From Strix aluco (taxonomy: Eukaryota; Chordata; Aves; Strigiformes; Strigidae), in the NCBI RefSeq assembly GCF_031877795.1, contig NC_133970.1, forward strand, positions 42,949,533 to 43,013,532: DNA of 64,000 nucleotides. The letters are read 5' to 3'. Below, in pieces: positions 21,383-63,001 of this stretch. The position numbers and the translations under genes are program-made. Under the pieces are notes generated by a model that saw nothing but the letters and a program-made list of their open reading frames with translations, was not told the origin of the DNA and made no database searches. The stretch's first letter is position 1. Every line of letters starts with the position of its first letter.

Positions 21383-21858
21383 GGGGGGCTACAGGGGTGG
21401 CTTCTGTGAGAAGATGCCAGAAGCTTCCTCTATGTCCAATACAGCCAGTGCCAGACGGCTCCAAGATGGACCCAACGCTGGCAAGGCCAAGCCCATCAGC
21501 CACAGTGGTAGCACCTCTGGGATAACATATTTAAGAAGGGGGAAAAAAAACCCTACACAACACCAGCAGCAGTCAGAAGAGAGGAGTAAGAATGTGTGAG
21601 AGAAACAACTCTGCAGACACCAAGGTCAGTGAAGAAGGAGGGGGAGGAGGAGCTCCAGGAATCAGAGCAGAGATTCCCCTGCAGCCCATGGTGAAGCCCA
21701 TGGTGAGGCAGCTGTGCCCCTGCAGCCCATGGAGGTTAATGGTGGAGCAGATGTCCACCTGCAGCCTGGGAAGGGCCCCATGCCGGAGCAGGTGGATGTG
21801 CCCGAAGGAGGCTGTGACCCCATGGGAAGCCCACGCTGGAGCAGTCTGTTGCTGGGAG

Positions 21859-22278
21859 TGTCGGGAACGACTTGAAGGACTCAGAACGGCCTGTACTGCT
21901 CCGTTGTTAGAGGGGGACGTACTGGAACTTGTAGGCTACAAACCTTGGGAGGCCTGAAAAAGGGAAGAGAAAAGCGCTGAGAAAAGTGCTGATATGGTGA
22001 AGAATTGCTAACCTGTGAGTCATGCTTGATAAAGGGCCGAAGACGGTGCAGACAGCAAGGAATTTAGAGTTTTTTATAGGAGCGGCTTAGTTGCTATTAG
22101 TCCAATTGCTAAAGTTTAAGTAGCTACCAATTAGCGCGCGCTGATAAGAATTCTGAAGCATAGCAACCAATCAATTTAACACACGCATCTTCTGATTTTC
22201 TATAAAAATGAGTATTACATGTAATAAAGTGAGAACTTTGCTTGCATCAAGCCTGTCTCCCGTCTCTCAATCGCGGCA
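21859..22278 (+). repeat. 5' LTR of ERV-Trp
   Basis: Begins TGTCGGGAACGAC and ends CGCGGCA. TATAAAAA at 22201-22208 is the likely core promoter and AATAAA at 22223-22228 the polyadenylation signal, giving a very short R region typical of alpha- and betaretrovirus-like LTRs. Confidence 0.95.
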
Positions 22279-22281
22279 AAT

Positions 22282-22299
22282 TGGTGACCCCGACGTGAT
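22282..22299 (+). other. Primer-binding site, tRNA-Trp
   Basis: TGGTGACCCCGACGTGAT starts three bases after the 5' LTR. It matches the tRNA-Trp primer used by avian alpharetroviruses. Confidence 0.93.
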
Positions 22300-22410: not shown

Positions 22411-22418
22411 GAGGTGAG
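22411..22418 (+). promoter_or_regulatory. Candidate major splice donor of ERV-Trp
   Basis: GAGGTGAGC fits the vertebrate donor consensus with GT at 22414-22415 and lies 16 bases before the gag start. It would serve spliced messages for the cysteine-rich ORF and env. Confidence 0.5.
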
Positions 22419-22429
22419 CTGTGGGAAAC

Positions 22430-24037
22430 ATGGGGAATCAGGCGTCTTCCCCGGAGAGAGACGTATATGAGCTTATGAAAGCTCTTCTTCAAAAGCATGG
22501 GAAAGTTATCTCTGGGCACGACCTTAAAGCCATGCTTAAATGGGTACAAATGAAGATACCTGCTGTAACTGCTTCTAGTATTTTTACACGGGAACTTTGG
22601 GATGATGTGGGGGTGAAGTTGTGGGATTCTGCCACATCGGGGAATGTAGAAGCACAGCATATGCTCCCGTGGTGGAGGGTCATTTTTGAAGCTTTAAAAG
22701 CTCAAGAGGAGAGTAATAATGGCGACGTAAAGACTAAAGGGAATACCCCCGCCGCCCCGACCATTACCCCCACGGTCCCTTCTCCACCTTCGGAAAGTCA
22801 AAGTTGCTGAGGACCCCCAGAGGTCGGCGCCACAAATTATCCGGCGGGGGAGGACTCCTTTGATTCGGGGCCGGTAGATCCCGAGAAGGAGCCGGACTTA
22901 TGTCCCCCTGACCCACGCGACGCATGGGCTAATATAAAACGCCAAGCCTTAAAAGAAGGGGATCTCGAGATTGCAAAAATGATAGTTGCTCCTGTGATTT
23001 ATCAGGGCCGGGGGGCACAATGGGAAGCCTTATCTTTCTCTGTAATTAAGGAGTTGCGCCGTACTGTCACTGAGCACGGGCTTTCCTCTCCTTATTTCGC
23101 GAGCCTGTTAGCTTCAGTTTTTGATACCTATGTCATGACTCCTCATGATTTAAAATCCTTAGCGCAATTACTGTTAACTCCGACTCAGTTTTCATTGTGG
23201 GAGTCGCAGTGGAGGGGAGGGCTCCAAGTACTTCTCCGTGCGTTTGCGGGTCATGCTAATCAAGCTGTGGCTGCTTTAACTATAGAGCATCTTACCGGCA
23301 CGGGTCAGCACACTGATCCGGTAGCCCAGGCTCGGGATATCCCTCGGGAGGCTCTTGAAGCGATCCGTGATGAAGCAAAAAAGGTCTTTTTTAAGGTCCC
23401 GGACACACAGAAGCCACAGAAAGCTTTTACAACTATTACTCAAGAACCTCGAGACCCCTATATGCAATTTATTGATAGATTAAAGCAGGCTCTGGAGCGT
23501 CAGATAGATAATGTGGAAGCGTGGGACATTCTGTTGCTGAAACTGGCTGTTGAAAATGCTAATGTGGATTGTAAAAAGCTCCTGAAATCCCTTCCTAATC
23601 TGAATCCTACACTGGTTGAAATGGTGGAGGCTTGTAATAGAATTGGCACTGTGGATCATAAATTTGAGGTCATGGCTGCTGCCCTTGCAGCCATGCGCGG
23701 TCCGTCAAGCTTGGGAAATTGCTATGGCTGTGGTAAATCAGGGCATTTTAAAAAGAATTGCCTGACTATGAATGCAGGGGCTAGGCACCAAGCCCCTGGG
23801 GTTTGCCCTAGATACCGAAAAGGGTGTCATTATGCTAATCAATGTTGGTCTAAGTATGATTTTCAGGGTCAACTGATACAGGGAAACCGGTTGCGGAGCG
23901 CGGGGCAGCGACACGTGCAGACACAAGTGCCGCAGCCGACATTCCAGCCCTCACGGAGGGAAGCAGCAGCGCCTCAAGTCTTCGTCCAGCAACAGCTGGG
24001 AGCACAGGATTGGACCTGGCAACCGCCCACACAGTAA
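22430..24037 (+). pseudogene. gag of ERV-Trp with one in-frame stop
   Basis: The ATG at 22430 gives MGNQAS, a myristoylation-type start, followed by a betaretrovirus-like matrix domain. A single in-frame TGA at 22808-22810 interrupts a frame that is otherwise open to 24037 (535 codons). The capsid lies at about 22970-23690, with the major homology region near EPRDPYMQFIDRLKQAL (23447-23497). The nucleocapsid has a full zinc knuckle, CYGCGKSGHFKKNC, at about 23721-23762, and a second knuckle in which the second Cys is Tyr (CPRYRKGCHYANQC). The stop would yield only a matrix fragment unless read through. Confidence 0.92.
23881..23887 (+). promoter_or_regulatory. gag-pro ribosomal frameshift site G GGA AAC
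   Basis: GGGAAAC is placed with its first G as the third base of a gag codon, exactly as the X XXY YYZ rule requires for a -1 shift. The shifted frame is open and at once enters the dUTPase motif AGSTGLDLAT. A GC-rich stretch follows that could fold. Confidence 0.88.
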
Positions 24038-24690
24038 CATTACTTGATTGCTCAGTTCACTTGCTGTCGACAGATATCTCGGGACCCTTACCCCCTAAAA
24101 CACAAGCGCTGTTGTTAGGAAGATCATCTACTACATTGTCAGGGCTTTTTGTATTACCAGGGGTCGTTGACTCTGACAGTACTGACGAAATTAAAATTAT
24201 GGCATGGACCCCGTTTCCTCCCTGCACGATACCTAAAGGTAGTCGTGTAGTGCAATTAATATTGATTCCTGCGGGGACGAACTCCCTCGCTCCTAGTCAA
24301 TCTTATCAAAGGCGGGGAGGATTTGGGTCTACAGGGAACCCACAAATTCTATGGGTGCAATCTATTTCTCAGAAGCGACCCGTATGTCAATGTACCCTTA
24401 TTCGTGGAGGGCAGCAAGTAGTACTAAATGGAATTATTGATACTGGAGCTGATGTCACGATAATATCTCTGGCTAAGTGGCCTCCGCAATGGCCTCTGGC
24501 TAATGTTTCCCACACGTTAGCTGGAATTGGAGGAACTGGTAACAGCCATCAAAGTGTGGAATTAATTCAGATTCAAGGTCCAGAGGGGCATATAGCCTCT
24601 GTTAAATCTTTTGAGTTACCTGTCCCTCTGATCCTGTGGGGGCGTGATGTGCTGTCCCAGTGGGGAATGTCCATTAGGACCCATTTTTAG
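23881..24690 (+). CDS. pro: Pro: dUTPase-like domain plus aspartic protease (ERV-Trp)
   Basis: Reached by a -1 shift from gag, this frame encodes a dUTPase-like domain and then a protease. dUTPase motif 1 is AGSTGLDLAT (about 23992-24021), motif 3 reads GVVDSDSTDEIKI (about 24163-24201), motif 4 is KGSRVVQLIL and motif 5 RGGFGSTG (about 24313-24336). The tyrosine and glycine expected in motif 3 are Ser and Asp here, so the enzyme may be inactive. The protease follows, with the catalytic IDTGADVTII at about 24436-24465 and the C-terminal GRDVLSQWG block near 24640-24666. The frame is intact to the TAG at 24688-24690. dUTPase would keep dUTP low during reverse transcription; the protease matures Gag and Pol. 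Confidence 0.9.
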   Translation, partial: GKPVAERGAATRADTSAAADIPALTEGSSSASSLRPATAGSTGLDLATAHTVTLLDCSVHLLSTDISGPLPPKTQALLLGRSSTTLSGLFVLPGVVDSDSTDEIKIMAWTPFPPCTIPKGSRVVQLILIPAGTNSLAPSQSYQRRGGFGSTGNPQILWVQSISQKRPVCQCTLIRGGQQVVLNGIIDTGADVTIISLAKWPPQWPLANVSHTLAGIGGTGNSHQSVELIQIQGPEGHIASVKSFELPVPLILWGRDVLSQWGMSIRTHF

Positions 24691-27379
24691 AAGGGGCCAT
24701 TGAAGCGCACAACACCCTTAAATTGACATGGAAGACCGATACCCCTATTTGGGTAGATCAATGGCCCCTACCACTAGAAAAGCTTCGCGCCCTCCAAGAA
24801 TTGGTTACAGAGCAATTAACAAAAGGGCATATTGTGCCTTCTACCAGTCCTTGGAACTTGCCTATTTTTGTCATTAAAAAACAAACCGGCAGGTGGCGCT
24901 TGCTCCACGACCTCAGAAAAATTAATGACGCTATGGAAGACATGGGGGCCCTCCAACCAGGACTCCCGTCCCCTACTATGATTCCTCGAAATTGGTGTTT
25001 GACTGTCATTGATCTTAAAGATTGCTTTTTCAATATCCCACTGAACCTTGATGATGCTCCTAAATTTGCCTTTTCAGTTCCAAGCGTCAACATGCAAGCC
25101 CCGTTGCAAAGGTACCAGTGGGTTGTGCTGCCACAAGGAATGAAGAATAGTCCTACAATTTGTCAGTGGTATGTAGCTAAAGTACTTAGTCCTGTTAGGA
25201 CCACGATGCCTAATGTTTTGTTATATCATTATATGGATGACATCTTGGTGGCCACACAACATCACGAGGTCATGGAGGAAGCTATAGCCCTTGTCATGGT
25301 TGCTGTCAACTTGGCAGGCCTCTGTATTGCGCCGGAAAAAATTCAAAAAATATCACCATGGAAGTACTTAGGTTGGCGCATCAGGGCTCAGACTATAGTT
25401 CCTCAACCCTTACAGATACAGACAGACATTAGAAACTTGCATGATGTACAGAAATTGTTGGGAACAATCAATTGGGTCCGACCACTGTTGGGAATTTCTA
25501 ATGCAGACTTAAGTCCTTTATTTGAACTGCTTAAAGGGGATACTGACTTGTGTTCCCCCCGCAGTCTCGGCTCTGAGGCTGTTGCCTCTTTGCAAAAGGT
25601 TGCCACAGCGATCGCCAACAGGCAAGTTCACCGGTGGGCTCCTGAATTACCCTTTCATCTCATTATTTTAAATCCTACTCGACAGCCTCATGCACTGATT
25701 TTTCAATGGGACTCTCAGAAGCCAGACCCACTGTTAATTATTGAATGGATTTTTTTGCCAAATCAATCTACAAAAACTATTTTGACACAGCATGAGATGT
25801 TTGCTTCTTTAATAATTAAAGCCAGACAACGCTTACTAACATTATCAGGGGTAGACTTTACTTGTATCTGCCTGCATGTGACAAGCATGTATTTACAATG
25901 GCTTTATCAGCAATCAGACGTTTTTAGCATGGCACTGGCAGACTATATGGGTCAACTCACATCCCACCCACCTTCGCACAAACTGCTTAATGCCAATATT
26001 CACTTGATATCCAGGCCGAAAAGAAGTGACCAGCCGTTACAAGCCCTTACTGTATTTACGGACGGGTCTGGGAAATCGCACAAATCAGTCATCTTATGGT
26101 GGGACGACCAGCACGGACGATGGGACTCAGACATAGAGACCGTTCCTGGTTCTCCCCAGATAGTGGAACTGGTTGCAGTTGTTCGAGTTTTTCGGAGGTG
26201 GTCCACACCACTTAACCTTATTACTGATTCAGCTTATGTTGCAGGGATTGTCGAGCGAGCTGAAGCATCTGTATTACGTGATATCTCACATTCTGAGCTG
26301 TTTGTTTTATTACAAGAGCTTATCTTTCTTTTGGATTCTCGCCCTCATCCCTATTTTGTTATGCATGTCAGATCGCATACTTCTTTACCTGGTTTTATTG
26401 CAGAAGGGAACCGACGAGCAGATATGCTGACATTACCAGTACAGGTATTGCCGGATCGCATAGCACAAGCTAAACTCAGCCATTCCTTTTTTCACCAGAA
26501 TGCTGGAGGTCTCAAACGACAGTTTGGGCTTACCTCCAACAAGCATCTAATATTATCGCCGTGTGTCCTGACTGCCAAAGGCATTCTTTCCCATCGATAG
26601 CAGGAGGGGTTAATCCTAGAGGTCTACAAAGCTTACAACTATGGCAAACAGACGTTACGCATTATCCAGAATTTGGTAAATTGAAATATGTCCATTCTTC
26701 CATTGACACCTTTTCAGGCACTTTGTTTTCTTCTTGCCACACAGGAGAGAAGGCGTGTGACGTTCGTAAACATTTAATGCATGCTTTTGCCACCTTGGGC
26801 ATACCTTCTCAGATAAAAACGGACAATGGTCCTGCATATGTCTCAACTGCAACAAAAACCTTTCTTGACTCCTGGGGTGTAATTCACACTACTGGCATCC
26901 CTCATTCCCCTACAGGTCAATCTCTAATTGAACGCTCTCACCAGTCTTTAAAGCGCTTACTACAACAACAAAAAGGGGGAGTAGGGGCTGCCACCCCTGA
27001 GGAACGACTACAGAAAGCTTTGTATGTTTTTAATTTCTTGAATTGTTCTTTGCTAGATAACAATCCTCCGATAGTTCGACATTTCAACGCGAATACTTCA
27101 TTCGAGACACGAGTTAAAGTCCCAGTGTTGGTTCACGACCCAGAAACAGGTAAAATAATGGGATCATATCCTCTTGTCACGTGGGGAAGAGGTTATGCTT
27201 GTGTCTCTACAGAAAAAGGCCCCAGGTGGATTCCAGCAAAGAACGTGCGTCCTTTCCGTGAATCCCTGCCTCGAGCGCCCGACGAGCCCAGCGGGGACTC
27301 TGCTCAACCTCCAGATCATCCTCCGGAACAACTTCCTGACCTTCTTGAGGCTATGGAGGACACCTACGGAGCTTCATAA
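24678..27379 (+). pseudogene. pol: pol of ERV-Trp: reverse transcriptase, RNase H, integrase; one frameshift
   Basis: The pol frame is -1 relative to pro and opens after a TAG at 24675-24677, leaving only a 13-base overlap for shifting. The first ATG codon in frame is at 24729. Reverse transcriptase shows SPWNLPIFVIKK, VIDLKDCFFNIPL, LPQGMKNSP and YMDD (25230-25241). RNase H begins at TVFTDGSGKS near 26048 with the later ITDSAYV block. Integrase starts with the zinc-binding HSFFHQNAGGL; a single-base change in frame between about 26520 and 26560 moves the reading frame so that CPDCQ and the DDE core (QTDVTHY, TDNGPAY, SLIERSHQ) and the GRGYACV block continue to 27379. The frameshift splits the zinc domain, so pol is inactive as read. 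Confidence 0.93.
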
Positions 27380-27394
27380 ACTGGGGATCCTTAG

Positions 27395-27814
27395 ATGGGC
27401 CAAAGCAAAGAAGTATTTGTGACGGACATTGTCTGCACTGTATGTGGGTATTGTAAACCCTGGGTCCTGTGTGTATGTTATAGCTGTGAAAAGGAGTGGT
27501 GGCGTAAAGCAACCCTAGCCCGCCGTTGGTGTGACGAATGCCTGGAAAAGGAGGTGGACGTTGGTAAAATTGTACTTATCACCGGGCATGTGGAACTAGG
27601 CAGTGATGAGTATTGGGAGTGTTGTCAGAATTGGGCACAGCTAGTGTCCCAGCGAGCGAAGGAAGCTTTGATCAGTAATATTGAGTGCAATAAGCAAAAC
27701 TTTGTACCCTCTATCTGGGCTGTTCCTAAACAGGCCTGGGAGGGGACCAAAGAAAAATGCAGGAAGCGATTTGCGTGGAAGAGAAAAGAGGGCAAAAAGA
27801 ATTCTTTAAAATAA
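27395..27814 (+). CDS. Cysteine-rich accessory ORF between pol and env (ERV-Trp)
   Basis: A 139-codon frame starting with an ATG 15 bases after the pol stop; its last 58 bases overlap the start of env in another frame. Residues 14-49 are a Cys cluster: C-x2-C-x2-C-x5-C-x-C-x2-C, then x3-Trp-Trp, x9 and C-x2-C. This is a strong candidate zinc-binding domain. A block ELGSDEYWECC follows near residue 77, and the C-terminus is basic (about residues 115-139, rich in Lys and Arg). No hydrophobic segment is present, so the product is probably cytoplasmic or nuclear. Standard alpha-, beta- and gammaretroviruses have no gene here. ERV-His has a related frame at the same place. The frame is undamaged although gag, pol and env of the same provirus are broken. 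Function unknown; a regulatory role is inference. Confidence 0.8.
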   Translation: MGQSKEVFVTDIVCTVCGYCKPWVLCVCYSCEKEWWRKATLARRWCDECLEKEVDVGKIVLITGHVELGSDEYWECCQNWAQLVSQRAKEALISNIECNKQNFVPSIWAVPKQAWEGTKEKCRKRFAWKRKEGKKNSLK

Positions 27815-29117
27815 TATCTGTTTTCCTGGCGCTCATGACAATAGCGCAGGGCTATTTATTTCCCCCCTACACTCCCTAAGGTCAATGTATGGGTCACGCT
27901 AGCAAATATAACTGGACAAGACCCTTTGTGTCTTGCCACCACCTCACCTAACAACCCCTTTTCCACATGCCTCGTGGGTCTGACGCTAGATAAGTGGCCA
28001 ATACCTGAAAGTGTAAAACATGCTTTTCCAGCTCTGTCACCAAATTTAACAAATGAATGGGATGCATGGATCTCCTTTCTCCCACAGGCTACTCTGAAAC
28101 CACAAGAAACTGAGCTCCTTGGATCAGTAAAAATGGATTTTTGTGTTAAGTTTAACTATACCGGAAAGAATCAGTCTAAAGCATGGGATGTTTCTCCTGC
28201 CCATCCTATTTTTAAAAATGCTAGTGCCTGGTGTAATTACACAGCAACAAACCTGTCTAAATCTAGCAATTCTCCTTTTTTGTTACCGTTGGGGATATTC
28301 TTTATTTGTGGGGACAGAGCATGGCCTGTTATTCCTTCTCATATAAAGGGAGGTCCATGTAGCCTCGGATGCCTCTCTGTCTTAGCTCCTAATACATCTA
28401 TGATTTTACAACATCGCTTACCCTACAGGGCAAAGCGTGGCATTCATGCATATACCCCCAACTGTGACGATAATACAGAATTTTGGTCTTTTAGTCACCG
28501 CTTTTTTTGCTTCTTTTTTGCTACCAGGAGCCGCTGCTGGGAAAGCATTATCAACATTAGATAAGCTTGGCTGCTGGCTTGCTAAACAGATGAATGCCAC
28601 TAGCAAGGCATTGTCTGGTCTTCTGTTAGATGTAGATAGCGTTCGCCATGCCACATTGCAAAATAGAGCTGCTATAGATTTTTTGCTTTTAGCACAAGGC
28701 CATGGTTGTGAAGATTTTGAAGGTATGTGCTGTATGAATCTCTCTGACCACTCGGAATCGATTCATGCCAGTATTCAACAACTTAAAAAGGGAGTCTCTA
28801 AACTCCGACAAGATGATCGCTGGGATTGGTTAGACAAACTCTTTGGAGAGTGGAGGCTATCAGGGTGGATAAGAAGCTTAGTGAAGACTATTGTTTATGC
28901 TTTAACTGGTTTTATTCTCTTATTGATTTTTTTACCCTGTTTGTTACAATGTTTGCAACGATTGATGGAACGCTCCGTGAAAAAGATTCTTTTTGTGCAA
29001 AAGGAAGGGGGAGATGTCGGGTACGACTTGAAGGACTCAGACAGAATGGCCTGTACTGCTCCGTTGTTAGAGGGGGACGTACTGGAACTTGTAGGCTACA
29101 AACCTTGGGAGGCCTGA
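27757..29117 (+). pseudogene. env: env of ERV-Trp with two frame breaks
   Basis: The ATG at 27757 starts a leader with the hydrophobic core FFKIISVFLALMTIAQG, overlapping the cysteine-rich ORF. The frame is lost at the C-run near 27860-27866 and continues in the frame 27926-28564 (surface subunit with NPFSTCLVGLTL and several Asn-x-Ser/Thr sites) to a basic cleavage site RAKR near 28429-28440. A second frame change just after it leads into the transmembrane subunit (28437-29117), with fusion peptide LLPGAAAGKAL, the heptad segment LQNRAAIDFLLLAQ, the C-x6-CC block CEDFEGMCC and a hydrophobic anchor near residues 155-180 of that frame. The stop lies inside the 3' LTR. Env would mediate receptor binding and fusion. 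Confidence 0.9.
28999..29014 (+). other. Polypurine tract of ERV-Trp
   Basis: AAAAGGAAGGGGGAGA directly precedes the TGTCGGG start of the 3' LTR. Confidence 0.92.
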
Positions 29118-29438
29118 AAAAGGGAAGAGAAAAGCGCTGAGAAAAGTGCTGATATGGTGAAGAATTGCTAACCTGTGAGTCATGCTTGATAAAGGGCCGA
29201 AGACGGTGCAGACAGCAAGGAATTTAGAGTTTTTTATAGGAGCGGCTTAGTTGCTATTAGTCCAATTGCTAAAGTTTAAGTAGCTACCAATTAGCGCGCG
29301 CTGATAAGAATTCTGAAGCATAGCAACCAATCAATTTAACACACGCATCTTCTGATTTTCTATAAAAATGAGTATTACATGTAATAAAGTGAGAACTTTG
29401 CTTGCATCAAGCCTGTCTCCCGTCTCTCAGTCGCGGCA
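29015..29438 (+). repeat. 3' LTR of ERV-Trp
   Basis: Same structure as the 5' LTR, with TATAAAAA at 29361 and AATAAA at 29383-29388. The difference near 29040-29052 is a 4-bp insertion plus one substitution. The TGGGAG duplication follows at 29439-29444. Confidence 0.95.
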
Positions 29439-30565: not shown

Positions 30566-31480
30566 AAAGCTATCTGTCATTTGTGGAATCTAATGTGTCT
30601 TTGCAAGTTGTCTGGCTACTTAGTTTAGACATTTGTCAGGCTTGGCTATATTTTCTAATTTTGTAAATCTCCTTTCCAGCCTTCCTCCTCTCCTTTCTCC
30701 CCTGCAGCATTTACATCTATCCCTCCAACTAGTCCACCAGTCTCCCCCTTTCATTTCCAGATCAGTATCAAAAGCCCCTTTCATCCATGTATTTAAACCC
30801 TCTGAGTACTTGCTTTCCTTACACGCTGGGCTCCATTATGCTTGCCCTCACCCTGATCCTCCTGCTTATGCAGTACCAGCCCCGTCTCTGCACCACAGCA
30901 CAATCTCCCCTTGTTGGAGCAGCCACCACCTGCTTGGCTCCCAAGTCATCTGGACCTGCAGTCCTCCACATTGCCAAGTCCTACAGCGTTCATCTCTAGA
31001 AGCCTATCTGCACACCCTTCCCTTGACAATTAATTTCTTTCCTCCCTCCACTGTCTTTCAGGCTCCAAATCAGGGATCATTATTACTGTGCTCTGGGAAG
31101 CATTTTCAAAAGCGAGCTGAATTGGGTGCTCTACAGATTGAGATCATATTGTATTTTATTGTCTTAAGTGTTTGTCAGGCAGGTACTACATTGTATACCA
31201 TGGTAATAGCTGATGGAAGGGAAGATGTTATAAATACACGCGCCACACTTAAAAAGTTGGTATTTGCAAGGGTTACTTCACAGTGTGTGATAATGTTCAT
31301 TCTTCAGACCAATTAAGTTTAAATTAGGCAAACATTGGGTAAGTGTAAGGAACTGAAGGAAGAAATGCCTCAAACATTCATCGACACAGAAAACCTCAAG
31401 GACAAGCTGTAGACTTTGAATTAGTCTAAGGAATATCACCCAAGGAAGCAGGAGTGTATTGAAGGATGCACCCCCCACTC
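30566..31480. other. Unassigned sequence, perhaps decayed gag linker
   Basis: A proline-serine-rich stretch around 30680-31000 resembles the variable linker of a gag gene in more than one frame, including an open frame 30633-31316, but shows no capsid, matrix or zinc-knuckle motif. It may be the decayed 5' part of an ERV. I cannot support a gene. Confidence 0.3.
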
Positions 31481-31839: not shown

Positions 31840-32190
31840 CGTCTAGTATGCTCATCAGCTGATAAAATGAACTTAAAAGGCAACAGAAACTTTGCTGGGT
31901 GTGCACCCACTACCCAGGATTACCGGACCTGAGACAAAGCTGGATCCAGGGGTGGTGACCGGATTTCTTTGACTCTCTTTCTCTCCTTTCTTTTTCTTTT
32001 CTTTCCTTTCCTTTCTTTTCTTTCTTATAGATTTATTAGAGACCACATTGCTTATTATCCTTTTCCAAATTTAAATTTTTCTCTACCGCAAGTAAAACAT
32101 TTTAACCGGTCGTTTGGTGTCGTTTCACCTTAATTTAACCCGAGGGGATCACAGAACCGTTGTGATTCTCTGGGCTTCCAGTCTGGGTCA
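31840..32190 (+). repeat. Possible LTR 3' part next to ERV-32k
   Basis: The stretch has a pyrimidine tract (about 31975-32028), an AT-rich block and a TGGGTCATGACA end, with the arrangement of an LTR U5 region. The pol of ERV-32k begins abruptly right after it. No matching partner in the window, so the call is weak. Confidence 0.35.
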
Positions 32191-36281: not shown

Positions 36282-36314
36282 GTGGGCAATCATGATTAAG
36301 TTTCATGTTTTGAC

Positions 36315-54034: not shown

Positions 54035-54565
54035 TGTGATAGATTGGGTGGGTTTGTTCACTAAAATGTCAGCAGGATAAGGTGCTTGTTTGCTTGGCAG
54101 GATATGCTGGGGGCCTCTTGGTGGGTGAGACCCAGATGTCGTTTGGCCTGCTTAATCAGCCCCCACAGGTCTGGTCTCCACCCAGATGTCGTTTGGCCTG
54201 CTTAATCAGCCCCCACAGGTCTGGTCTCCACCCAGATGCCGTTAGGCTTGCTTAATCAGACCCCACAGGTCAAGTCTCCACCCAGATATTGAGAGGATCG
54301 AATAAGGAAGATTGAGAACCTCCATCCCTGCGACCCCCTAGTAGCAAAACGAACATGCGCAGAGTATACCGAAAGAAACTACGTCAACCGGGAAGAAGAC
54401 TGTATATAAAAAGGGACTGTAAAAAGGGAAGAGGGCCGCCGTTGATGGAGCGGAGACTCCCCGGCTGCCCAGCGCTGATTTTTGCTCGCTAACTTTGCTT
54501 GCTGAAATTATAATAAATTCTGATTGGGTTGGAAACTTTTGGTCTCGTTTTCTCAACATATAACA
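54035..54565 (+). repeat. 5' LTR of ERV-His
   Basis: Begins TGTGATAGATTGGG and ends CATATAACA. TATATAAA at 54403-54410 is the core promoter and AATAAA at 54512-54517 the polyadenylation signal. Upstream lie three units of a 50-bp direct repeat. Confidence 0.95.
54131..54280 (+). repeat. Three 50-bp direct repeats in the 5' LTR (candidate enhancer)
   Basis: Units at 54131-54180 and 54181-54230 are identical; the third, 54231-54280, differs at several positions. The 3' LTR has only two units (62617-62666, 62667-62716). Position upstream of the TATA box fits the enhancer repeats of gammaretroviral LTRs. Confidence 0.92.
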
Positions 54566-54568
54566 ATT

Positions 54569-54586
54569 TGGTGCCGTGACTCGGAT
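54569..54586 (+). other. Primer-binding site, tRNA-His
   Basis: TGGTGCCGTGACTCGGAT starts three bases after the LTR and matches the tRNA-His primer used by HERV-H-type elements. Confidence 0.9.
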
Positions 54587-54775: not shown

Positions 54776-54947
54776 ATATTTGGAAATCCGTTCGGTTGGG
54801 GTTGGTGATCCTGAAGCGTTGCATGTGAGTGGTTCCAGTGGAACCAAGCGAGTGCGGACCCTCAGTAGTGCGGTTCCCATAGCCCGCGAGGGCGTGGGCC
54901 ACGAACCAGGGGAACGTGTGTGAGTGAGAAAGAGTGCGCTTCGGAAG

Positions 54948-56441
54948 ATGGGACAGGGGAAAAGCAAGCCCCCTGGTCCCATGGGTGGAGGGCCCCCTGT
55001 GCGGTTGCCCCCTATCCCGCCTGATAGTCCCTTAGGATTAATGTTGACAAATTGGAGGGATTTTTCAAAAAGCAAAGGAAAGAATAAAGCAAAAATGATC
55101 CATTTTTGTATGGAAATTTGGGGAGGTCAGAATATTAAGGAAGAACATGTCTTCTGGCCAATCTTTGGGTCTTTTGAAAATTGGGTATGTGAGGCCCTAA
55201 ACACATATGTCAATTCTAAGGAACCGGTTAATCCGGAGGAGAGTGATTATGCTAACATGTGGATGGGATCAGGAGCCAAAAGCTATCTGTTTGCCCTAAA
55301 AGAAAAGGGGGGTGGGAAAAACGATAAGAAAAAACGAGACAAAGAAGAGGTTCCCTTATTACCCCCACCTTATATACCACCCCCACCACCTATTGCCAAT
55401 CCACCACCCTCAGCCCCTGAGGAAACTGAGAGCGACTCTGGAACTTCCTCAGACACCCCCAGAAGTTCCAGAAGGGCAACTAGAAGTCAGGCAAAACAAC
55501 AAAAATTATATCCACTCCGGGAGACACCAATGGGGGGACCACAACCAGGGATAGGATTTGTATCTATACCCCTTAACTCAGGGGATGTTAGGGAATTCAA
55601 AAAAGAAATGGGAAACTTGATAGAAGATCCTTTGGGGGTTGCTGAAAGGATTGATCAATTCCTAGGTCCTAACACCTATACCTGGGATGAAATGCAGTCT
55701 ATTTTGAGTATACTATTTACTGCAGAAGAAAGAAATATGATCAGAAGGGCCGGAATGAGAATATGGGATGCCCAGCATGTACAAGGTCCTTTTGCAGATG
55801 AAAAATGGCCCATACAGCGACCAAATTGGGACCACCAAAACCCAAACCACAGAACTCATATGCAGGACCTAAGGACTATTATTATTCAAGGCATCCAAGA
55901 ATCTGTGCCCAGGGGGCAAAATATAAACAAAGCCTTTAATGAGAGGCAGAAAAAAGAGGAAAGCCCCACCGATTGGTTAGAGAGGCTGAGAAAAAGCCTC
56001 CAGATGTATTCAGGATTGGATCCGGACACCCAAGTGGGACAGGCATTGCTGAAAACTCAATTTGTAGCCAAATCTTGGGATGACATAAGAAAAAAATTAG
56101 AAAAGATGGACAACTGGCAGGACCGGGGGTTAGATGAGTTATTGCGAGAGGCTCAGAAAGTGTACGTCCGGAGGGATGATGAAAATCATAAGAAGCAAGT
56201 CAGGATGATGGTGGCAGCTGTCCGGGAGGGACAAAAAGGCCCAAGGAATCAGACACCTCCTCGTACACTAGGAAAATATGGGGATTTCCTAAAAGAAAAC
56301 CCCAGATTCAGGACAGAAAAAACTGAAGGAATGATAAGACGAAGAGAACAGGGCACCTGTTTCTATTGTTGTGCCCGAGGACACATAAAAAGGGAATGCA
56401 GGAAGCGGCTGCGGGACGAAAGAATGTTCAAGGAAGATTAG
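54948..56441 (+). CDS. gag: Gag polyprotein of ERV-His
   Basis: Gag forms the virus particle. The ATG at 54948 gives MGQGKS, a myristoylation-type matrix start; the frame is open a little upstream but without an ATG. About 497 residues follow, close to gammaretroviral Gag size. The matrix spans about residues 1-120, followed by a Pro-rich linker with the late-domain motif PPPY (near 55363) and a Ser-rich stretch with RSSRRATRSQ. The capsid covers about residues 200-430, with the major homology-type block ESPTDWLERLRKSLQMYSG. The nucleocapsid has one zinc knuckle, CFYCCARGHIKREC (about 56361-56402), and a basic tail. The stop is a UAG in frame with pol. No break is seen. Confidence 0.95.
   Translation: MGQGKSKPPGPMGGGPPVRLPPIPPDSPLGLMLTNWRDFSKSKGKNKAKMIHFCMEIWGGQNIKEEHVFWPIFGSFENWVCEALNTYVNSKEPVNPEESDYANMWMGSGAKSYLFALKEKGGGKNDKKKRDKEEVPLLPPPYIPPPPPIANPPPSAPEETESDSGTSSDTPRSSRRATRSQAKQQKLYPLRETPMGGPQPGIGFVSIPLNSGDVREFKKEMGNLIEDPLGVAERIDQFLGPNTYTWDEMQSILSILFTAEERNMIRRAGMRIWDAQHVQGPFADEKWPIQRPNWDHQNPNHRTHMQDLRTIIIQGIQESVPRGQNINKAFNERQKKEESPTDWLERLRKSLQMYSGLDPDTQVGQALLKTQFVAKSWDDIRKKLEKMDNWQDRGLDELLREAQKVYVRRDDENHKKQVRMMVAAVREGQKGPRNQTPPRTLGKYGDFLKENPRFRTEKTEGMIRRREQGTCFYCCARGHIKRECRKRLRDERMFKED
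56439..56441 (+). promoter_or_regulatory. gag-pol readthrough stop (UAG)
   Basis: gag ends at TAG followed by GGGTGTCAGGGG, and the pol frame is the same frame (both positions divisible by 3) and open at once. This is the gammaretroviral arrangement in which a few percent of ribosomes read through UAG to make Gag-Pol. Confidence 0.88.
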
Positions 56442-59400
56442 GGGTGTCAGGGGCTCTATTTGCTGGGGACCCAAAAACATAAGGAGCCCTTGATAAAAGT
56501 TAAGGTAGGTCCCCAGCAACAGGAATTCGAGTTCCTGGTAGATTCAGGGGCTGAAAGATCCACTATCCAGATAATGCCCCAGGGCTGTAAAGTATCATCT
56601 GAAACGGCCCAAGTTATAGGAGCCAAGGGAGAACCCTTTGAAGTACCCATTATCAAAAATATAGTATTTGAAACACATTCCAAATTTGGGATGGGATCAT
56701 TATTATTAGTCCCTGAGGCTGATTACAATTTATTGGGTAGAGATCTAATAATAGAATTAGGAATTAATTTGGAAGTAAAAAATAAAGAACTAAAGATTAG
56801 ATTATGCCCCCTTCGAGTGGAAGATGAAAAGGAAGTTAACCCAGAGGTATGGTATACCCCAGAAACGATTGGTAAGCTACAGATACCTCCATTTTCAGTA
56901 ACCATTATTAATCCGGAGGTACCTATACGAATCAAACAATATCCAATTCCACCAGAAGGAAAGTGGGGGCTAAAGCCTGAGATTGAAAGGTTACTTGAAA
57001 AAGGCCTTTTAGAACCATGTATATCCCCCTTTAACACTCCCATCCTACCCGTAAAGAAATCAGATGGGTCTTATAGATTAGTGCATGATTTAAGGGAAAT
57101 TAACAAAAGAACCGTAACTCGATTCCCCATAGTGGCTAATCCTTATACCTTGCTTAGTAGGATAGGGCCAGAAAATCACTGGTATAGTGTAACTGATTTA
57201 AAAGATGCCTTCTGGGCTTGCCCCCTGAGTGAGGAAAGCCGAAATTATTTTGCCTTTGAATGGGAAGATCCTGAAACCCACCGTCGACAGCAATTAAGGT
57301 GGACGGTCTTACCTCAAGGATTTACCGAGTCACCGAATTTATTCGGGCAAGCATTGGAGAAAATTCTCCAAGAATATGTGGTAAATGAAAATACCATCTT
57401 GATCCAGTATGTGGATGATCTTTTAATTGCAGGAAAGGAGGAAGCAATAGTAAGGCAAGAAAGCATTAAATTATTAAACTTCCTGGCTCTAAAGGGACTG
57501 AAGGTATCACGATCCAAGCTACAATTTGTGGAAGAAGAAGTTAAATATCTGGGGCATTATTTATCAAAAGGAGAAAAGAGAATAGATCCCGAACGAATAA
57601 AAGGGATATTGTCAATACCCCCTCCTACAAATAAAAAGCAGATAAGACAATTATTGGGTCTGGTCGGGTATTGCAGACAATGGATTGAAAATTATAGCAG
57701 CAAAGTAAAATTTTTGTATAATAAATTGAGCCAGGATAACCTGCTAAAATGGACCATGGAAGATGAACAACATTTGGAACAACTGCGAAAAGATCTTATA
57801 ACTGCCCCAGTACTAAGCTTACCTGACCTAAAAAGACCCTTTTCCCTCTTTGTTAATACTGATGAGGGAACTGCCTATGGAGTCCTTACCCAGGACTGGG
57901 CAGGGAAAAAGAAACCAGTAGGATATCTGTCTAAGTTACTAGACCCGGTTAGCAAGGGTTGGCCCACCTGCCTACAAGCAGTAGTAGCAGCTGCACTCCT
58001 GGTAGAAGAAGCAAATAAAATAACTTTTAATGGAGAATTAAGGGTTTTATCGCCTCATAACATTCAGGGCATCTTGCAACAAAAGGCAGAAAAATGGGTC
58101 ACAGATTCCAGGCTTTTAAAATATGAAGGAATATTGATTGATTCCCCAAAACTATCCCTGGAAGTCACAACCCTCCAGAATCCAGCCCAGTTCCTGTACG
58201 GAGAACCCTGGGACTCACAGTTGATACATGATTGTTTCATAACCATAGAAAGTCAAACTAAAATTAGACCAGATTTGGAAGAGGAAGAACTAGGAGAAGG
58301 AGAAAAATTATTTGTGGATGGCTCGTCACGAGTAGTGAATGGGAAAAGAAAATCAGGATATGCAATTATTAAAGGACCAAATCTCAAAGTATTGGAATCA
58401 GGACCATTAAATCATTCCTGGTCAGCCCAGGCGTGTGAATTATATGCAGTGCTAAGAGCTTTGGAATATCTAAGAAATAAAGTAGGAACTATATTTACCG
58501 ACTCTAAGTATGCATATGGAGTAGTGCATACCTTTGGGAAAATATGGGAAGAAAGAGGATTAATAAATTCACAGGGAAAGGACATAATCCATCAGGAATT
58601 AATAGTGCAGATATTAAAAGCTCTACGGGGTCCAAAAGGAATTGCAGCGGTACATCTAAAGGGACATCAAAAAGGAGTGGATATCCGAAATAGGGGAAAC
58701 AATGTAGCTGACCAAGAAGCAAAAAGAGCGGCCCTAAAAGACTGGACCCCAGTTGATACTCTTAGCCACGATACCTCAGAGGTAAAGAAATACAGATTGT
58801 ATAGCTTCACCCTACAGGAGAAAGCTAAATTAAAGGAGATGAACGTAAAAGAAAACCAGGAGGGACATTGGAATCTCCCCGATGGGAGAACTATTCTACC
58901 AAAAACACTTGCACTAGAAACTTTGCAAAGGTTTCACGATCAGACTCATTGGGGAGTACAAGCATTAGTAGACCAATTTGCTACTAAATATATGAGCATT
59001 GGAATATATAATTTGGCAAAACGAGTAGTAGAAGACTGCCTAATTTGCAAAAGGGTCAATAAAACCCAAGTTAGAGAAAGACCACTGGGTGGCAGACAGC
59101 TTGCCCACAGACCATTTGCTAACATTCAGATAGATTTTACTGAGCTACCAAAAGTGGGAAGATATAAATATTTGCTAGTGATAGTAGACCACCTAACTCA
59201 TTTTGTAGAGGCTTTCCCCACTGTTAGAGCAACTGCTCACACAGTAGTAAAAATACTGTTGGAAAACATAATACCAAGATATGGAATGAGTGAAGTTATT
59301 GACTCAGATCGAGGTCCCCACTTTGTGTCTAAAATAATACAGGAGGTTTTGGTGGCAATGGGAACAAAATGGGAACATCATACACCATGGCATCCCCAAA

Positions 59401-59840
59401 GTTCGGGGAAAGTAGAGAGGATGAATGCAGAAATTAAGAAACAGCTCACCAAACTAATGATGGAAACCCGGTTATCCTGGGTGAAGTGTTTACCACTCGC
59501 ACTACTTAATTTGAGAACTAGACCTAGGGCTGATCTTGGGATTTCACCTTTTGAGATGCTATACGGAATGCCTTATGATTTAGAGGAACCCCAAGACCAT
59601 CCTAGAGTGAGAGACCAGAAATTAAACTCCTATATTATAAACTTAATGAAATATCGAAATGAATTATGGAAAAAGGGAATGGTGGTGCAAAGACCTCCTC
59701 TGGACTTGGCTATTCATAAAATCCAGCCAGGAGACTGGGTATTAATTAAATCATGGAAGGAATCATCATTAACCCCTCAATGGGACGGACCTTACCTTGT
59801 ATTGCTTACCACAGAGACTGCTGTCCGAACTGCTGAATGA
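56442..59840 (+). CDS. pol: Pol of ERV-His: protease, reverse transcriptase, RNase H, integrase
   Basis: Made as a readthrough fusion to Gag, 1132 codons after the UAG. Protease: catalytic LVDSGAERST near 56535-56565 and the C-terminal LLGRDLI block near 56733. Reverse transcriptase: TDLKDAFWACPLSE, LPQGFTESPN and the catalytic YVDD at 57408-57419. RNase H: LFVDGSSRV (near 58308), CELYAVLRALE, FTDSKYAYGV. Integrase: zinc domain with HDQTHWG and CLICK, core IDFTELP, DSDRGPHFV, GKVERMNAE (complete DDE), then the SH3-like QPGDWVLIKSW block. A TGA at 59838-59840 ends the frame inside the last strand of the SH3-like domain, while the same frame stays open and family-like for about 33 more codons, so the tail is probably lost by a nonsense change. 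Everything else is intact. Confidence 0.95.
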   Translation, partial: GCQGLYLLGTQKHKEPLIKVKVGPQQQEFEFLVDSGAERSTIQIMPQGCKVSSETAQVIGAKGEPFEVPIIKNIVFETHSKFGMGSLLLVPEADYNLLGRDLIIELGINLEVKNKELKIRLCPLRVEDEKEVNPEVWYTPETIGKLQIPPFSVTIINPEVPIRIKQYPIPPEGKWGLKPEIERLLEKGLLEPCISPFNTPILPVKKSDGSYRLVHDLREINKRTVTRFPIVANPYTLLSRIGPENHWYSVTDLKDAFWACPLSEESRNYFAFEWEDPETHRRQQLRWTVLPQGFTESPNLFGQALEKILQEYVVNENTILIQYVDDLLIAGKEEAIVRQESIKLLNFLALKGLKVSRSKLQFVEEEVKYLGHYLSKGEKRIDPERIKGILSIPPPTNKKQIRQLLGLVGYCRQWIENYSSKVKFLYNKLSQDNLLKWTMEDEQHLEQLRKDLITAPVLSLPDLKRPFSLFVNTDEGTAYGVLTQDWAGKKKPVGYLSKLLDPVSKGWPTCLQAVVAAALLVEEANKITFNGELRVLSPHNIQGILQQKAEKWVTDSRLLKYEGILIDSPKLSLEVTTLQNPAQFLYGEPWDSQLIHDCFITIESQTKIRPDLEEEELGEGEKLFVDGSSRVVNGKRKSGYAIIKGPNLKVLESGPLNHSWSAQACELYAVLRALEYLRNKVGTIFTDSKYAYGVVHTFGKIWEERGLINSQGKDIIHQELIVQILKALRGPKGIAAVHLKGHQKGVDIRNRGNNVADQEAKRAALKDWTPVDTLSHDTSEVKKYRLYSFTLQEKAKLKEMNVKENQEGHWNLPDGRTILPKTLALETLQRFHDQTHWGVQALVDQFATKYMSIGIYNLAKRVVEDCLICKRVNKTQVRERPLGGRQLAHRPFANIQIDFTELPKVGRYKYLLVIVDHLTHFVEAFPTVRATAHTVVKILLENIIPRYGMSEVIDSDRGPHFVSKIIQEVLVAMGTKWEHHTPWHPQSSGKVERMNAEIKKQLTKLMMETRLSWVKCLPLALLNLRTRPRADLGISPFEMLYGMPYDLEEPQDHPRVRDQKLNSYIINLMKYRNELWKKGMVVQRPPLDLAIHKIQPGDWVLIKSWKESSLTPQWDGPYLVLLTTETAVRTAE

Positions 59841-59887: not shown

Positions 59888-60589
59888 GTGGAAAATCACC
59901 AGCCCGGTTGGAGACTTGAAATTAAAATTCCAGAGGACTTAATGGACTTGGACCCTTACAGGATTGAGTATTTACCTAACCCTTATTACTTAGATGATGG
60001 ACTTATAAGTAATGATGATGTTAGAATAAGGTGTGGAAATAAGTACTGTAATTGTCATCCCTTTGTATGTTATACCTGTAAGGTATGCAAGGAAAGGTGG
60101 TGGACTCATTGTGTTAAAGGATACCCTCCCCGAGGGGTTTGCATTTCCTGTTATAAATTGCAAAGGGAAATCACTAATTGGACATTAACCTGCAAAATAT
60201 TTAAAGGAGAATTAACCTCGGGATCAAAAGAATGGTGGGATATATTTACAAAAGGAATTGAACCAAATTTTTATTGTTATCACCCGAATGAACCAAAGCC
60301 TTTTGTAGCGGAAATCACTGAGAGCCTCTGTCGTAAGCTCATCAGTAAAGTCCGCTGTGACGTTCCTGAAATTAAACATACAAATTGGAGATCCTATTTT
60401 ACAAGACAGGATCTTAGACGGCGAGCGTTTCCTCCTGAAGAGCATCCTTGCTGCCGAGAAGATGGTACACCTCGTGGCTCGAAGCACCCGAGTCGACGAA
60501 CGAGGCAGAGGGAAAGACGACTGTGGAGGAAGGAGCCGTCCAACTGGAGCGTTGCTGAGATGCTGGCAGAATTACCACGGGATTGGTAA
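59888..60589 (+). CDS. Cysteine-rich accessory ORF between pol and env (ERV-His)
   Basis: An open frame of 233 codons; upstream stop at 59879-59881, and the first ATG is at 59942, so an unspliced product would start at residue 19, while a spliced message could supply another start. Residues 49-88 form a Cys cluster: C-x4-C-x-C-x4-C-x2-C-x2-C, then x3-Trp-Trp, x12 and C-x2-C, likely zinc-binding. A block GELTSGSKEWWD is at 107-118. The C-terminus has an arginine-rich stretch (residues 202-215) and a leucine-rich tail (222-229, VAEMLAEL) resembling a nuclear export signal. No signal peptide or membrane segment. Residues from about 159 overlap the env frame, and from about 192 the ATG-started env leader. 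The related ORF of ERV-Trp lies at the same position. An RNA-binding or transactivating regulator (Tat-, Rev- or Rem-like in layout) is my inference. Confidence 0.8.
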   Translation: MENHQPGWRLEIKIPEDLMDLDPYRIEYLPNPYYLDDGLISNDDVRIRCGNKYCNCHPFVCYTCKVCKERWWTHCVKGYPPRGVCISCYKLQREITNWTLTCKIFKGELTSGSKEWWDIFTKGIEPNFYCYHPNEPKPFVAEITESLCRKLISKVRCDVPEIKHTNWRSYFTRQDLRRRAFPPEEHPCCREDGTPRGSKHPSRRTRQRERRLWRKEPSNWSVAEMLAELPRDW

Positions 60590-62501
60590 AGAAAAATGGG
60601 TGAATAACATACTTTTAACCCTGTCTGCATTTCACAGGAATCAACGCAGAGGGAATCTGGTATACAGGGGAACATCATCTCAAACCTTGCATATCATAAT
60701 TGTAATATTGTTATGGCTAAAATTAAGTTATTGTACTGCAGAACTGGAAACACACCAACCTTTTAAATGGTCCCTAACCAGATTAGATGGTAAAATCTTA
60801 CGTACATCAACTGTACCAGGGGCTCCAAGCTTCATTGTGGGATTGTGTGATCTAACGGGAATAGACCACTGTGGTAAAATTTTGAATTTAACAGGATTTT
60901 ACATGTGTCCTAGTTCCAACCGAGGGAAACCATATTGTAATTACCCTGGCCATTATTTTTGTGCCTATTGGGGCTGTGAAACTATCGCTTCTGATTGGGC
61001 TCCAGGAGGGGGACCAGATCAGTATCTTAAAGTAGGATTTGGTCCAGCTGGGTGTACACCACCTTGGAAAGGTCCCTCAGGAGAGATGCTCTCTAAAGGA
61101 ACATGTTCATATATATATATTAATATAAAAAAAACAGAAGACCCAGGGTGGATCCTGGGAAGAACCTGGGGAATTAGACATTGGGAACCTGGAGCAGATC
61201 GGGGAAATCTTATAACAATTAAGAAAGAAATTGCACCTAATGAAACCCCAGAACCCATTGGACCAAATCTGGCAATTTCTACTATTAATGTTAAAAACAA
61301 TACCACTAATTACCAGGGAAAGTATACCCAACCCACTAATTTGACCTCTGAAATCAATATATATGGATATAGTACTCTATGGAAAATTATGCAAGCTAGT
61401 TATGGGATACTAAACAAAACCAAACCTGAGTTAACGAAAGACTGTTGGTTATGTTATAATATTAGGCCACCTTTTTATGAGGCTGTAGGAATGACTGCTA
61501 AAGCTAAAAGAGTAAATGGAACTAACCCTGCACGGTGCATATGGAAAAAAGGAAAGGACCAGACACAGGGACTCACTTTGTCCCAAGTAACAGGTAAAGG
61601 GAGATGCATTGGAAAGGTCCCCACCCATAAAATGCATCTCTGTGGAGCAAAAATATCAAAAAACGAGAGACCTGCACAGTGGCTGATTCCCGCCGCTAAC
61701 ACGAAATGGATATGTTCAAACATTGGGATCACCCCGTGTATATCTCTTGTTGCATTTAACGAAAGCAGTGAATACTGCATTCAGGTATCAATAATACCAC
61801 GTATTACTTACCATCCTAGCGAATATATTTATGATCAGCATATAACCCCTGAACATCATTTAGTAAAACGAGAACCAATCACTGTCCTTACCATTGCTAC
61901 TCTTCTCACCATCAGTGGCATAGGCGCAGGAACAGGAATCGCCTCCTTAGTAAACAATCAAAAAGAAATGAAGGCACTCCGAGTAACAGTAGACGAAGAT
62001 CTCGGTAAAATTGAGCTAGCGATTGATGGATTGGTAAAGTCATTAAGATCCTTATCTGAGGTAGTAATGCAAAATAGAAGGGGATTAGATCTCTTGTTAC
62101 TACAAGGAGGATTATGTGTAGCACTCAAGGAAGAATGTTGTACTTATGCAGACCATACAGGGGTAACAATTGATACAATGACTGAGTTACGAAAGAGGTT
62201 AGAACAACGGAAACGGGAAAGAGAGGCTCAACAGAGCTGGTATGAATCCTGGTTCAATTATTCCCCTTGGCTAACAACTTTGCTTTCGACTATAGCTGGC
62301 CCTCTGCTGTTGCTTATTTTGGGATTAACTTTTGGACCATGCATTTTTAACAAACTAATTACAATTGTAAAAAGTCGCTTGGAAGCTGCACACTTAATGC
62401 TTGTTAGAGCTAAATACGAACCACTCCGAGGAGATATGGAAATGGAAGAAAGCTTGAATTTGAGTCAACAAGAATTAGAAAGGTTTAGTGAACAAAATTA
62501 A
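60462..62501 (+). CDS. env: Env of ERV-His with unusually long leader
   Basis: The frame is open from 60357 or earlier but its first ATG is at 60462, giving 679 residues. The first 75 or so residues are polar and Arg-rich; the hydrophobic signal core (LHIIIVILLWLKL) lies near 60687-60725, so the leader is about 90 residues. The surface subunit has many Asn-glycosylation sites and the CWLC disulfide-exchange motif at 61443-61454. Cleavage after LVKR at 61871 releases the transmembrane subunit: fusion peptide region TISGIGAGTGIASLV, heptad segment MQNRRGLDLLLLQGG, C-x6-CC at 62115-62141, anchor LLSTIAGPLLLLILGLTF (about 62278-62335), and a long tail. CWLC with C-x6-CC is the gammaretroviral pattern. 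The frame is intact. Confidence 0.93.
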   Translation: MVHLVARSTRVDERGRGKDDCGGRSRPTGALLRCWQNYHGIGKEKWVNNILLTLSAFHRNQRRGNLVYRGTSSQTLHIIIVILLWLKLSYCTAELETHQPFKWSLTRLDGKILRTSTVPGAPSFIVGLCDLTGIDHCGKILNLTGFYMCPSSNRGKPYCNYPGHYFCAYWGCETIASDWAPGGGPDQYLKVGFGPAGCTPPWKGPSGEMLSKGTCSYIYINIKKTEDPGWILGRTWGIRHWEPGADRGNLITIKKEIAPNETPEPIGPNLAISTINVKNNTTNYQGKYTQPTNLTSEINIYGYSTLWKIMQASYGILNKTKPELTKDCWLCYNIRPPFYEAVGMTAKAKRVNGTNPARCIWKKGKDQTQGLTLSQVTGKGRCIGKVPTHKMHLCGAKISKNERPAQWLIPAANTKWICSNIGITPCISLVAFNESSEYCIQVSIIPRITYHPSEYIYDQHITPEHHLVKREPITVLTIATLLTISGIGAGTGIASLVNNQKEMKALRVTVDEDLGKIELAIDGLVKSLRSLSEVVMQNRRGLDLLLLQGGLCVALKEECCTYADHTGVTIDTMTELRKRLEQRKREREAQQSWYESWFNYSPWLTTLLSTIAGPLLLLILGLTFGPCIFNKLITIVKSRLEAAHLMLVRAKYEPLRGDMEMEESLNLSQQELERFSEQN

Positions 62502-62520: not shown

Positions 62521-63001
62521 TGTGATAGATTGGGTGGGTTTGTTCACTAAAATGTCAGCAGGATAAGGTGCTTGTTTGCTTGGCAGGATATGCTGGGGGC
62601 CTCTTGGTGGGTGAGACCCAGATGTCGTTTGGCCTGCTTAATCAGCCCCCACAGGTCTGGTCTCCACCCAGATGCCGTTAGGCTTGCTTAATCAGACCCC
62701 ACAGGTCAAGTCTCCACCCAGATATTGAGAGGATCGAATAAGGAAGATTGAGAACCTCCATCCCTGCGACCCCCTAGTAGCAAAACGAACATGCGCAGAG
62801 TATACCGAAAGAAACTACGTCAACCGGGAAGAAGACTGTATATAAAAAGGGACTGTAAAAAGGGAAGAGGGCCGCCGTTGATGGAGCGGAGACTCCCCGG
62901 CTGCCCAGCGCTGATTTTTGCTCGCTAACTTTGCTTGCTGAAATTATAATAAATTCTGATTGGGTTGGAAACTTTTGGTCTCGTTTTCTCAACATATAAC
63001 A
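62521..63001 (+). repeat. 3' LTR of ERV-His
   Basis: Identical to the 5' LTR by eye except for one fewer 50-bp unit. TATATAAA at 62839-62846 and AATAAA at 62948-62953. GCAG follows at 63002-63005. Confidence 0.95.

Follow-up and report, generated by a model that had tools for sequence, protein, structure and literature searches.

Do two unrelated proviruses in one bird genome carry the same overlooked gene? The question is raised by a 64,000-nt stretch of the Strix aluco genome on contig NC_133970.1 (the window), which holds a class II and a class I endogenous retrovirus (ERV), each with a cysteine-rich open reading frame (ORF) between pol and env (Table 1). A sequence-only reading of the window had proposed that the two ORFs are copies of one accessory gene in proviruses of different lineages. 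This proposal is supported by our analysis: judged by its sequence, the accessory protein of both proviruses is best read as fast-evolving and probably zinc-binding, with a tail that is basic or rich in arginine. The two families are real, and both the frame and the Cys pattern are conserved in them. We call the class II ORF and its relatives B-type and the class I ORF and its relatives G-type.

Both ORFs occupy the slot claimed for them, at the positions claimed. They lie after integrase, start upstream of env in a different frame from it, and overlap its start. The class II ORF begins 15 nt past the integrase stop and contains the start of the env leader at 27757; in the class I provirus, the env ATG at 60462 likewise lies inside the ORF. 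The two proteins also share the predicted Cys cluster, a C-x3-W-W and a further C-x2-C. A downstream block that had been written as G-x-EL-x-GS-x-E-(Y/W)-W did not hold up: the proteins actually read G-x2-EL-GS-x-E-Y-W and G-EL-x2-GS-x-E-W-W, and the block is not kept in relatives. The second core Trp is not universal among relatives, as L029 reads R-V-W-R and L032 and L033 read W-Y.

How similar are the two window proteins? In BLASTP they are identical at 18 of 63 positions (E=5e-4), and the class II ORF also matches P0008, a database member of the class I family (E 2e-6). A hidden Markov model (HMM) built from 16 class I family members was searched against 804 six-frame stretches of the window. 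With composition correction off, the class II ORF scored 25.0 bits and ranked second of the 804, the next stretch scoring 7.7; none of 5000 full shuffles reached this score. When the B-type and G-type profiles were compared with each other, they scored 30.1, against 14.3 +/- 2.8 in column shuffles (maximum 25.5, none of 200 reaching the score; P=0.0008). Profile similarity, proposed earlier as a check on the shared gene, is thus present but limited to the core: as far as the sequences tell, what the window pair has in common is a ~50-residue Cys/Trp core and little beyond. The case for a single family that includes both types is good but not decisive.

Stronger sequence support for an overlooked accessory gene family than this pair similarity comes from the occurrence of the class II gene's relatives in class I proviruses. 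The protein database holds one relative of the class II ORF (P0001, 98%). The host genome, searched as 1.41 Gb in 202 contigs with the window on a 49-Mb contig, holds 13 matches, of which 8 lie on the window's contig. Eight matches are close copies (94-100% identity, 6 stop-free). Three more, at 34-35%, have open frames and come from another class II lineage (integrase 47%, transmembrane subunit (TM) 51%), which likewise carries the gene between pol and env. The two weak matches, L032 and L033, lie upstream of a Gag-p30 gag, so their host element is class I. A separate tblastn match of the class II ORF at 30918-31121 (E 0.011) was judged to be due to chance on inspection.

A genome search with L032 gave 48 matches. 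A gag p30 was found 3' of the B-type ORF in all ten loci L081-L090, L081 being L032's own place, which was also the only stop-free one among the 10 best L032 matches listed. In L080, apparently the 3' part of L032's provirus, no B-type ORF separates integrase from the env that comes after it. At the pol-env position, L094 with L092 displayed an integrase of class I type (66% over 67 aa), a 182-aa B-type ORF and an env that shares 41% identity with the surface subunit (SU) of the window's class I provirus. The B-type proteins are tied together by BLASTP (with betaW for the window class II ORF protein: betaW-L029 2e-19, L032-L092 1e-15, betaW-L032 5e-11, betaW-L092 3e-5) and have a C-terminal block, C...(V/I)Pxx-W-x-V...W...C..R(F/Y)-x-WK, with basic residues. 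B-type genes are therefore present in class II and class I proviruses, at both pre-gag and pol-env positions, and the gene family spans the class I/II divide.

The G-type family is larger. The class I ORF has 15 homologues in the protein database (P0002-P0016, 45-98% identity), none of which has a precomputed Pfam domain. Their 16-row alignment with the window protein contains 18 invariant columns, including C61, C64, C67, W71, W72, H74, C75 and C88. Of 22 G-type rows, 16 have a C-terminal CCREDG box followed by an arginine-rich motif, and the remaining six stop short of the motif. In the genome, where 150 of 654 candidates were scored, matches to the ORF number at least 151 and fall into four or more subfamilies. 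The close copies (n=24, 94-100% identity) are stop-free in 20 cases, and the other groups, B, C and D, share 37-53% identity with the window ORF. At 15 representative loci, the upstream integrase was 68-79% identical to the window's in 12 and 45% in one, and two had no integrase match. In a set of 20 close class I copies, 19 had an open accessory gene and 13 had an open frame over the first 541 env codons. The expected conservation of the frames was thus borne out by the close copies of both classes, and the frame is open in distant lineages too.

Is the gene under selection? Between some lineages, purifying selection acts on it. Three diverged between-copy pairs (L033-L093, L029-L031 and L092-L091), pooled, differ by 24 synonymous and 22 nonsynonymous changes and 1 stop, giving a ratio of nonsynonymous to synonymous substitution rates (dN/dS) of 0.36-0.42 (P 0.0003-0.002, transition bias allowed for; dN/dS ranges span mutation models). 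In four further comparisons synonymous sites were saturated, nonsynonymous divergence was 0.27-0.48 and there were zero stops. Uncorrected Nei-Gojobori ratios were 0.27, 0.28 and 0.51 for the window class I gene versus groups D and B (twice) and 0.48-0.77 for L032 versus nine copies that all carry one stop or more. With the window copy as reference, close copies gave 14 synonymous, 17 nonsynonymous and 2 stop changes in class II (first 384 nt; dN/dS 0.39-0.55, P 0.01-0.067) and 14, 22 and 1 in class I (0.52-0.68, P 0.03-0.14). Transitions outnumbered transversion-type changes 31 to 2 in class II and 35 to 2 in class I, which favours the weaker end of these ranges. A dN/dS clearly below 1, the sign of a functional gene sought by the sequence-only reading, was thus found at ~0.4 in the pooled between-copy pairs and less firmly among close copies. 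The accessory gene evolves faster than the integrase of the same elements: the proportion of nonsynonymous differences (pN) was 0.33-0.39, versus 0.15-0.20 for integrase.

Two class I groups behave differently, and both lack env where it normally lies. Only small env remnants survive in group C (22 copies), and the match between its copies ends ~850 nt past the accessory gene. No env match was found for group D (14 copies) in the ~1.4-1.5 kb fetched 3' of the gene; the element extends past the fetched sequence, so env could sit farther away. dN/dS was near 1 or weakly below it: 0.83-1.09 in group C (17 synonymous, 44 nonsynonymous, 6 stops) and 0.66-0.88 in group D (21, 42 and 3). One stop is common to 7 of the 22 group C copies and another to 8 of the 14 group D copies, both before the arginine-rich motif. 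Constraint on the accessory gene is weak or absent in these groups, and we dropped the idea that they keep the gene under selection after env loss because of these ratios and the shared stops. Both groups multiplied with env reduced (C) or not found nearby (D), and with many copies sharing an accessory stop.

Searches for known relatives outside the family gave little. Neither window protein matched a Pfam family at E<=10, and ten proteins of the family alignment A1 gave one match, due to chance; Pfam includes models for Tat and Rev. Sequence searches of the PDB returned weak matches only (best E 0.44, 0.68 and 0.95), and scans of IMG/VR with both proteins, alignment A1 and a piece of the class I integrase found no relative. 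RNA-structure scans of the class I env, gag and gag-pol junction revealed no specific response element of the TAR or RRE kind: structures predicted in env at 61000-61199 and 61600-61799 (dinucleotide z scores -2.9 and -4.1) are possible candidates, but windows in gag and at the gag-pol junction were equally structured.

What could the protein do? We consider it rather likely that these genes form an overlooked accessory family of class I and class II ERVs and encode a regulator. The protein would be produced in the infected cell from a spliced mRNA, bind RNA through its basic C-terminal tail (arginine-rich in G-type) and recruit a host factor through its zinc core, and it would be needed for cell-to-cell spread more than for germ-line copying. 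In joining a Cys core to an arginine-rich tail, the protein resembles the small regulators that complex retroviruses encode; because of this resemblance, RNA binding and host-factor recruitment are our first choice. Zinc binding is predicted from the conserved C-x2-C pairs, and a spliced mRNA may be made, with putative sites of consensus-like pattern, pyrimidine-rich and acceptor-like at 27212, 27314 and 59814 and donor-like at 22411. We would give even chances to the further idea that this is an old mobile gene, independent of env, that has crossed from one ERV class to the other and moved between the pre-gag and pol-env positions.

Several results weigh against a regulator family of this kind. 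The function is deduced from composition and context, and the AlphaFold models, with a mean predicted local distance difference test score (pLDDT) of 51.5 for the class I and 42.9 for the class II protein, gave no usable fold. Close-copy dN/dS loses significance when the mutation model is strongly biased towards transitions (P 0.067 and 0.14). An export or transcription factor that is strictly essential is hard to reconcile with the decay in groups C and D, unless it is supplied in trans by intact copies. As to the link between the two types, the class I HMM with HMMER composition correction on gave the class II ORF 5.0 bits, which is chance level and below four unrelated stretches. Shuffles that keep the Cys and Trp positions reached 25.0 bits in 19 of 5000 cases, and most of the direct pair signal is therefore the Cys/Trp pattern. 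The HHalign probability of B-type versus G-type was 24.5% over 47 aligned columns, a short core, and with four B-type sequences it was 13% (P=0.0022).

A rival reading is that of separate inventions, with unrelated B-type and G-type genes arising in the same permissive slot and their Cys/Trp zinc cores converging; the likeness is confined to those 47 columns, the pairwise signal is mostly Cys/Trp spacing, and the C-terminal halves of the two types are dissimilar. We nevertheless regard this as unlikely, given the profile score that no column shuffle reached, the match of the class II ORF to P0008, and L092, where a B-type gene takes the slot that in related class I proviruses is filled by G-type. 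Even if it were true, B-type by itself would span both classes. That neither ORF is a gene, and both are chance open frames in a pol-env overlap, is hardly credible. The ORFs are short and without a Pfam match, the dN/dS signal among close copies is weak, and groups C and D decay; yet the Cys pattern is kept in proteins that have 45-58% identity with the window protein, frames stay open at saturated synonymous divergence in the four comparisons above, the pooled dN/dS is low, and homologues lie upstream of gag, away from any pol-env overlap. A more serious, if still doubtful, alternative accepts the family and gives it another job, that of an antagonist of host antiviral factors: a zinc-structured adaptor with a role like that of lentiviral Vif, Vpr or Nef, its Cys/Trp core serving as an interaction surface and its basic tail as a localisation signal. 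The fast protein change relative to integrase would suit an antagonist, as would relaxed constraint in groups that lack the usual env, which is expected if the gene serves cell-to-cell spread. A host-defence antagonist would account for the rapid change, and for the decay in groups without the usual env, nearly as well as a regulator would. Against an antagonist, the strongly conserved arginine-rich motif suggests nucleic-acid binding, no Pfam match to known antagonists was found, and any partner protein is hypothetical.

The host proviruses are of the kinds that had been described. The class II element has a tRNA-Trp primer-binding site (PBS), a dUTPase, and gag, dUTPase-protease and pol in three frames; the class I element has a tRNA-His PBS, Gag p30, pol and a TLV_coat env (Pfam). 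The PBSs at 22282 and 54569 match those for tRNA-Trp and tRNA-His at 18 of 18 positions each. The class II env combines an Avian_gp85-like SU with a gamma-type TM, and the window copy has frame splits in pol, at the boundary of reverse transcriptase (RT) and integrase, and in env. The premature stop near the C-terminus of class I pol is particular to the window copy, the 19 others of 20 close copies being without it. The claimed UAG readthrough arrangement is there: gag ends in TAG and pol follows in the same frame. The strongest-folded 200-nt stretch of the scanned class I gag-pol part (56460-56659, z score -5.4) lies directly 3' of this stop and fits the expectation for a readthrough signal. 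Both insertions look recent because their long terminal repeats (LTRs) are 98.1% identical (class II) or without mismatch (class I). The class I LTRs differ by 50 gap positions, and the 5' LTR has a repeat at 50-nt spacing close to its start. At 32190-36893 there is a third class I provirus, which is broken; ORFs at 34777-35511 interrupt its pol and presumably belong to a CR1-type long interspersed element (LINE).

Table 1. Positions of the two proviruses and their accessory genes in the window, and of related genes at other loci (tab-separated)
Feature	Position	Strand	Remarks
Class II provirus 5' LTR	21854..22278	+	98.1% identity to 3' LTR
Class II PBS, tRNA-Trp	22282..22299	+	18/18 positions match
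Class II gag (p24)	22979..24037	+	
Class II dUTPase-protease	24010..24690	+	
Class II pol	24723..27379	+	RT + RNase H 24723-26600, integrase 26561-27379; frames differ in window copy
Class II (B-type) Cys-rich accessory ORF	27395..27814	+	139 aa; between pol and env
Class II Cys/Trp core, residues 14-49	27434..27541	+	C14, C17, C20, C26, C28, C31, W35, W36, C46, C49
Class II env	27757..29117	+	frame-split in window copy
Class II env parts	leader from 27757; Avian_gp85-like 27926-28564; TM 28437-29117	+	
Class II provirus 3' LTR	29009..29438	+	
Class I provirus 5' LTR	54035..54565	+	vs 3' LTR: 0 mismatches, 50 gap positions
Class I PBS, tRNA-His	54569..54586	+	18/18 positions match
Class I gag (p30)	54924..56441	+	TAG at end
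Class I pol	56460..59840	+	premature stop near integrase end in window copy
Class I (G-type) Cys-rich accessory ORF	59888..60589	+	233 aa from GTG; first ATG 59942
Class I Cys/Trp core, residues 49-88	60032..60151	+	
Class I arginine-rich motif, residues 203-215	60494..60532	+	env leader encoded there too, in other frame
Class I env	60462..62501	+	open, from first ATG
Class I provirus 3' LTR	62521..63001	+	
B-type gene L032	L032:1540-2091	-	upstream of class I gag
B-type gene L033	L033:1167-1709	+	upstream of class I gag
Class I groups C and D	loci L035-L037, L040-L044, L047, L049-L064, L069-L079		

How does the gene compare with known systems? To our knowledge, such supposedly simple retroviruses do not have a small zinc-finger-like gene of this kind. 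Lentiviral Tat and Rev come closest in plan: they are small, Tat has a Cys-rich core and an arginine-rich motif, Rev has an arginine-rich motif, and their genes lie near the pol-env junction and overlap env. Unlike them, the window proteins have no Pfam match, display another Cys/Trp pattern, reside in class I and class II avian-type hosts, and are each encoded in a single ORF, whereas Tat and Rev are split between exons. Rem of mouse mammary tumour virus (MMTV) is encoded within env (PMC3621094). The same holds for Rec of human endogenous retrovirus K (HERV-K) and Rej of Jaagsiekte sheep retrovirus (JSRV). All three are env-proximal, basic RNA-export factors of class II viruses, and their Rev-like role is a candidate function for ours. 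In contrast to them, the window ORFs are separate, precede env, overlap it only at their ends and are not in the env leader frame. An extra ORF near the 3' end of pol also recalls orf-x of JSRV and the XtERV-S ORF. PMC3621094 and PMC8278194 place orf-x within pol, whereas the window class II ORF begins after the end of integrase and overlaps env; the two are set apart by position.

Exchange of 3' genome parts between lineages is described for bird-type class II and class I ERVs, TgERV-F among them, in PMC10536682. The window differs from a TgERV-F-type env swap in that its SUs belong to different Pfam families (Avian_gp85 and TLV_coat) and the accessory core is shared. According to the OVEX1 paper, Ovex1 has no obvious accessory ORFs. 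We found no description of the Cys-rich gene in the open-licence PMC literature; an earlier mention in other papers (e.g. on TgERV-F, Henzy 2014, or Chen and Cui 2019) is possible. Accessory genes are a known kind of gene; what appears to be new is this family, together with its occurrence at two positions and in two ERV classes.

If the idea of an old mobile gene is right, many retroviruses of this host group, gamma-like as well as beta-like, would be "complex", with an undescribed family of regulatory proteins. A conserved Cys-rich basic family at >100 places of one genome, in both ERV classes and at two genome positions, would change the division into simple and complex retroviruses for the host group. 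With the gene as a marker, recombination among lineages could be traced, and the movement of viral RNA or the countering of host defences would become directly testable in these viruses.
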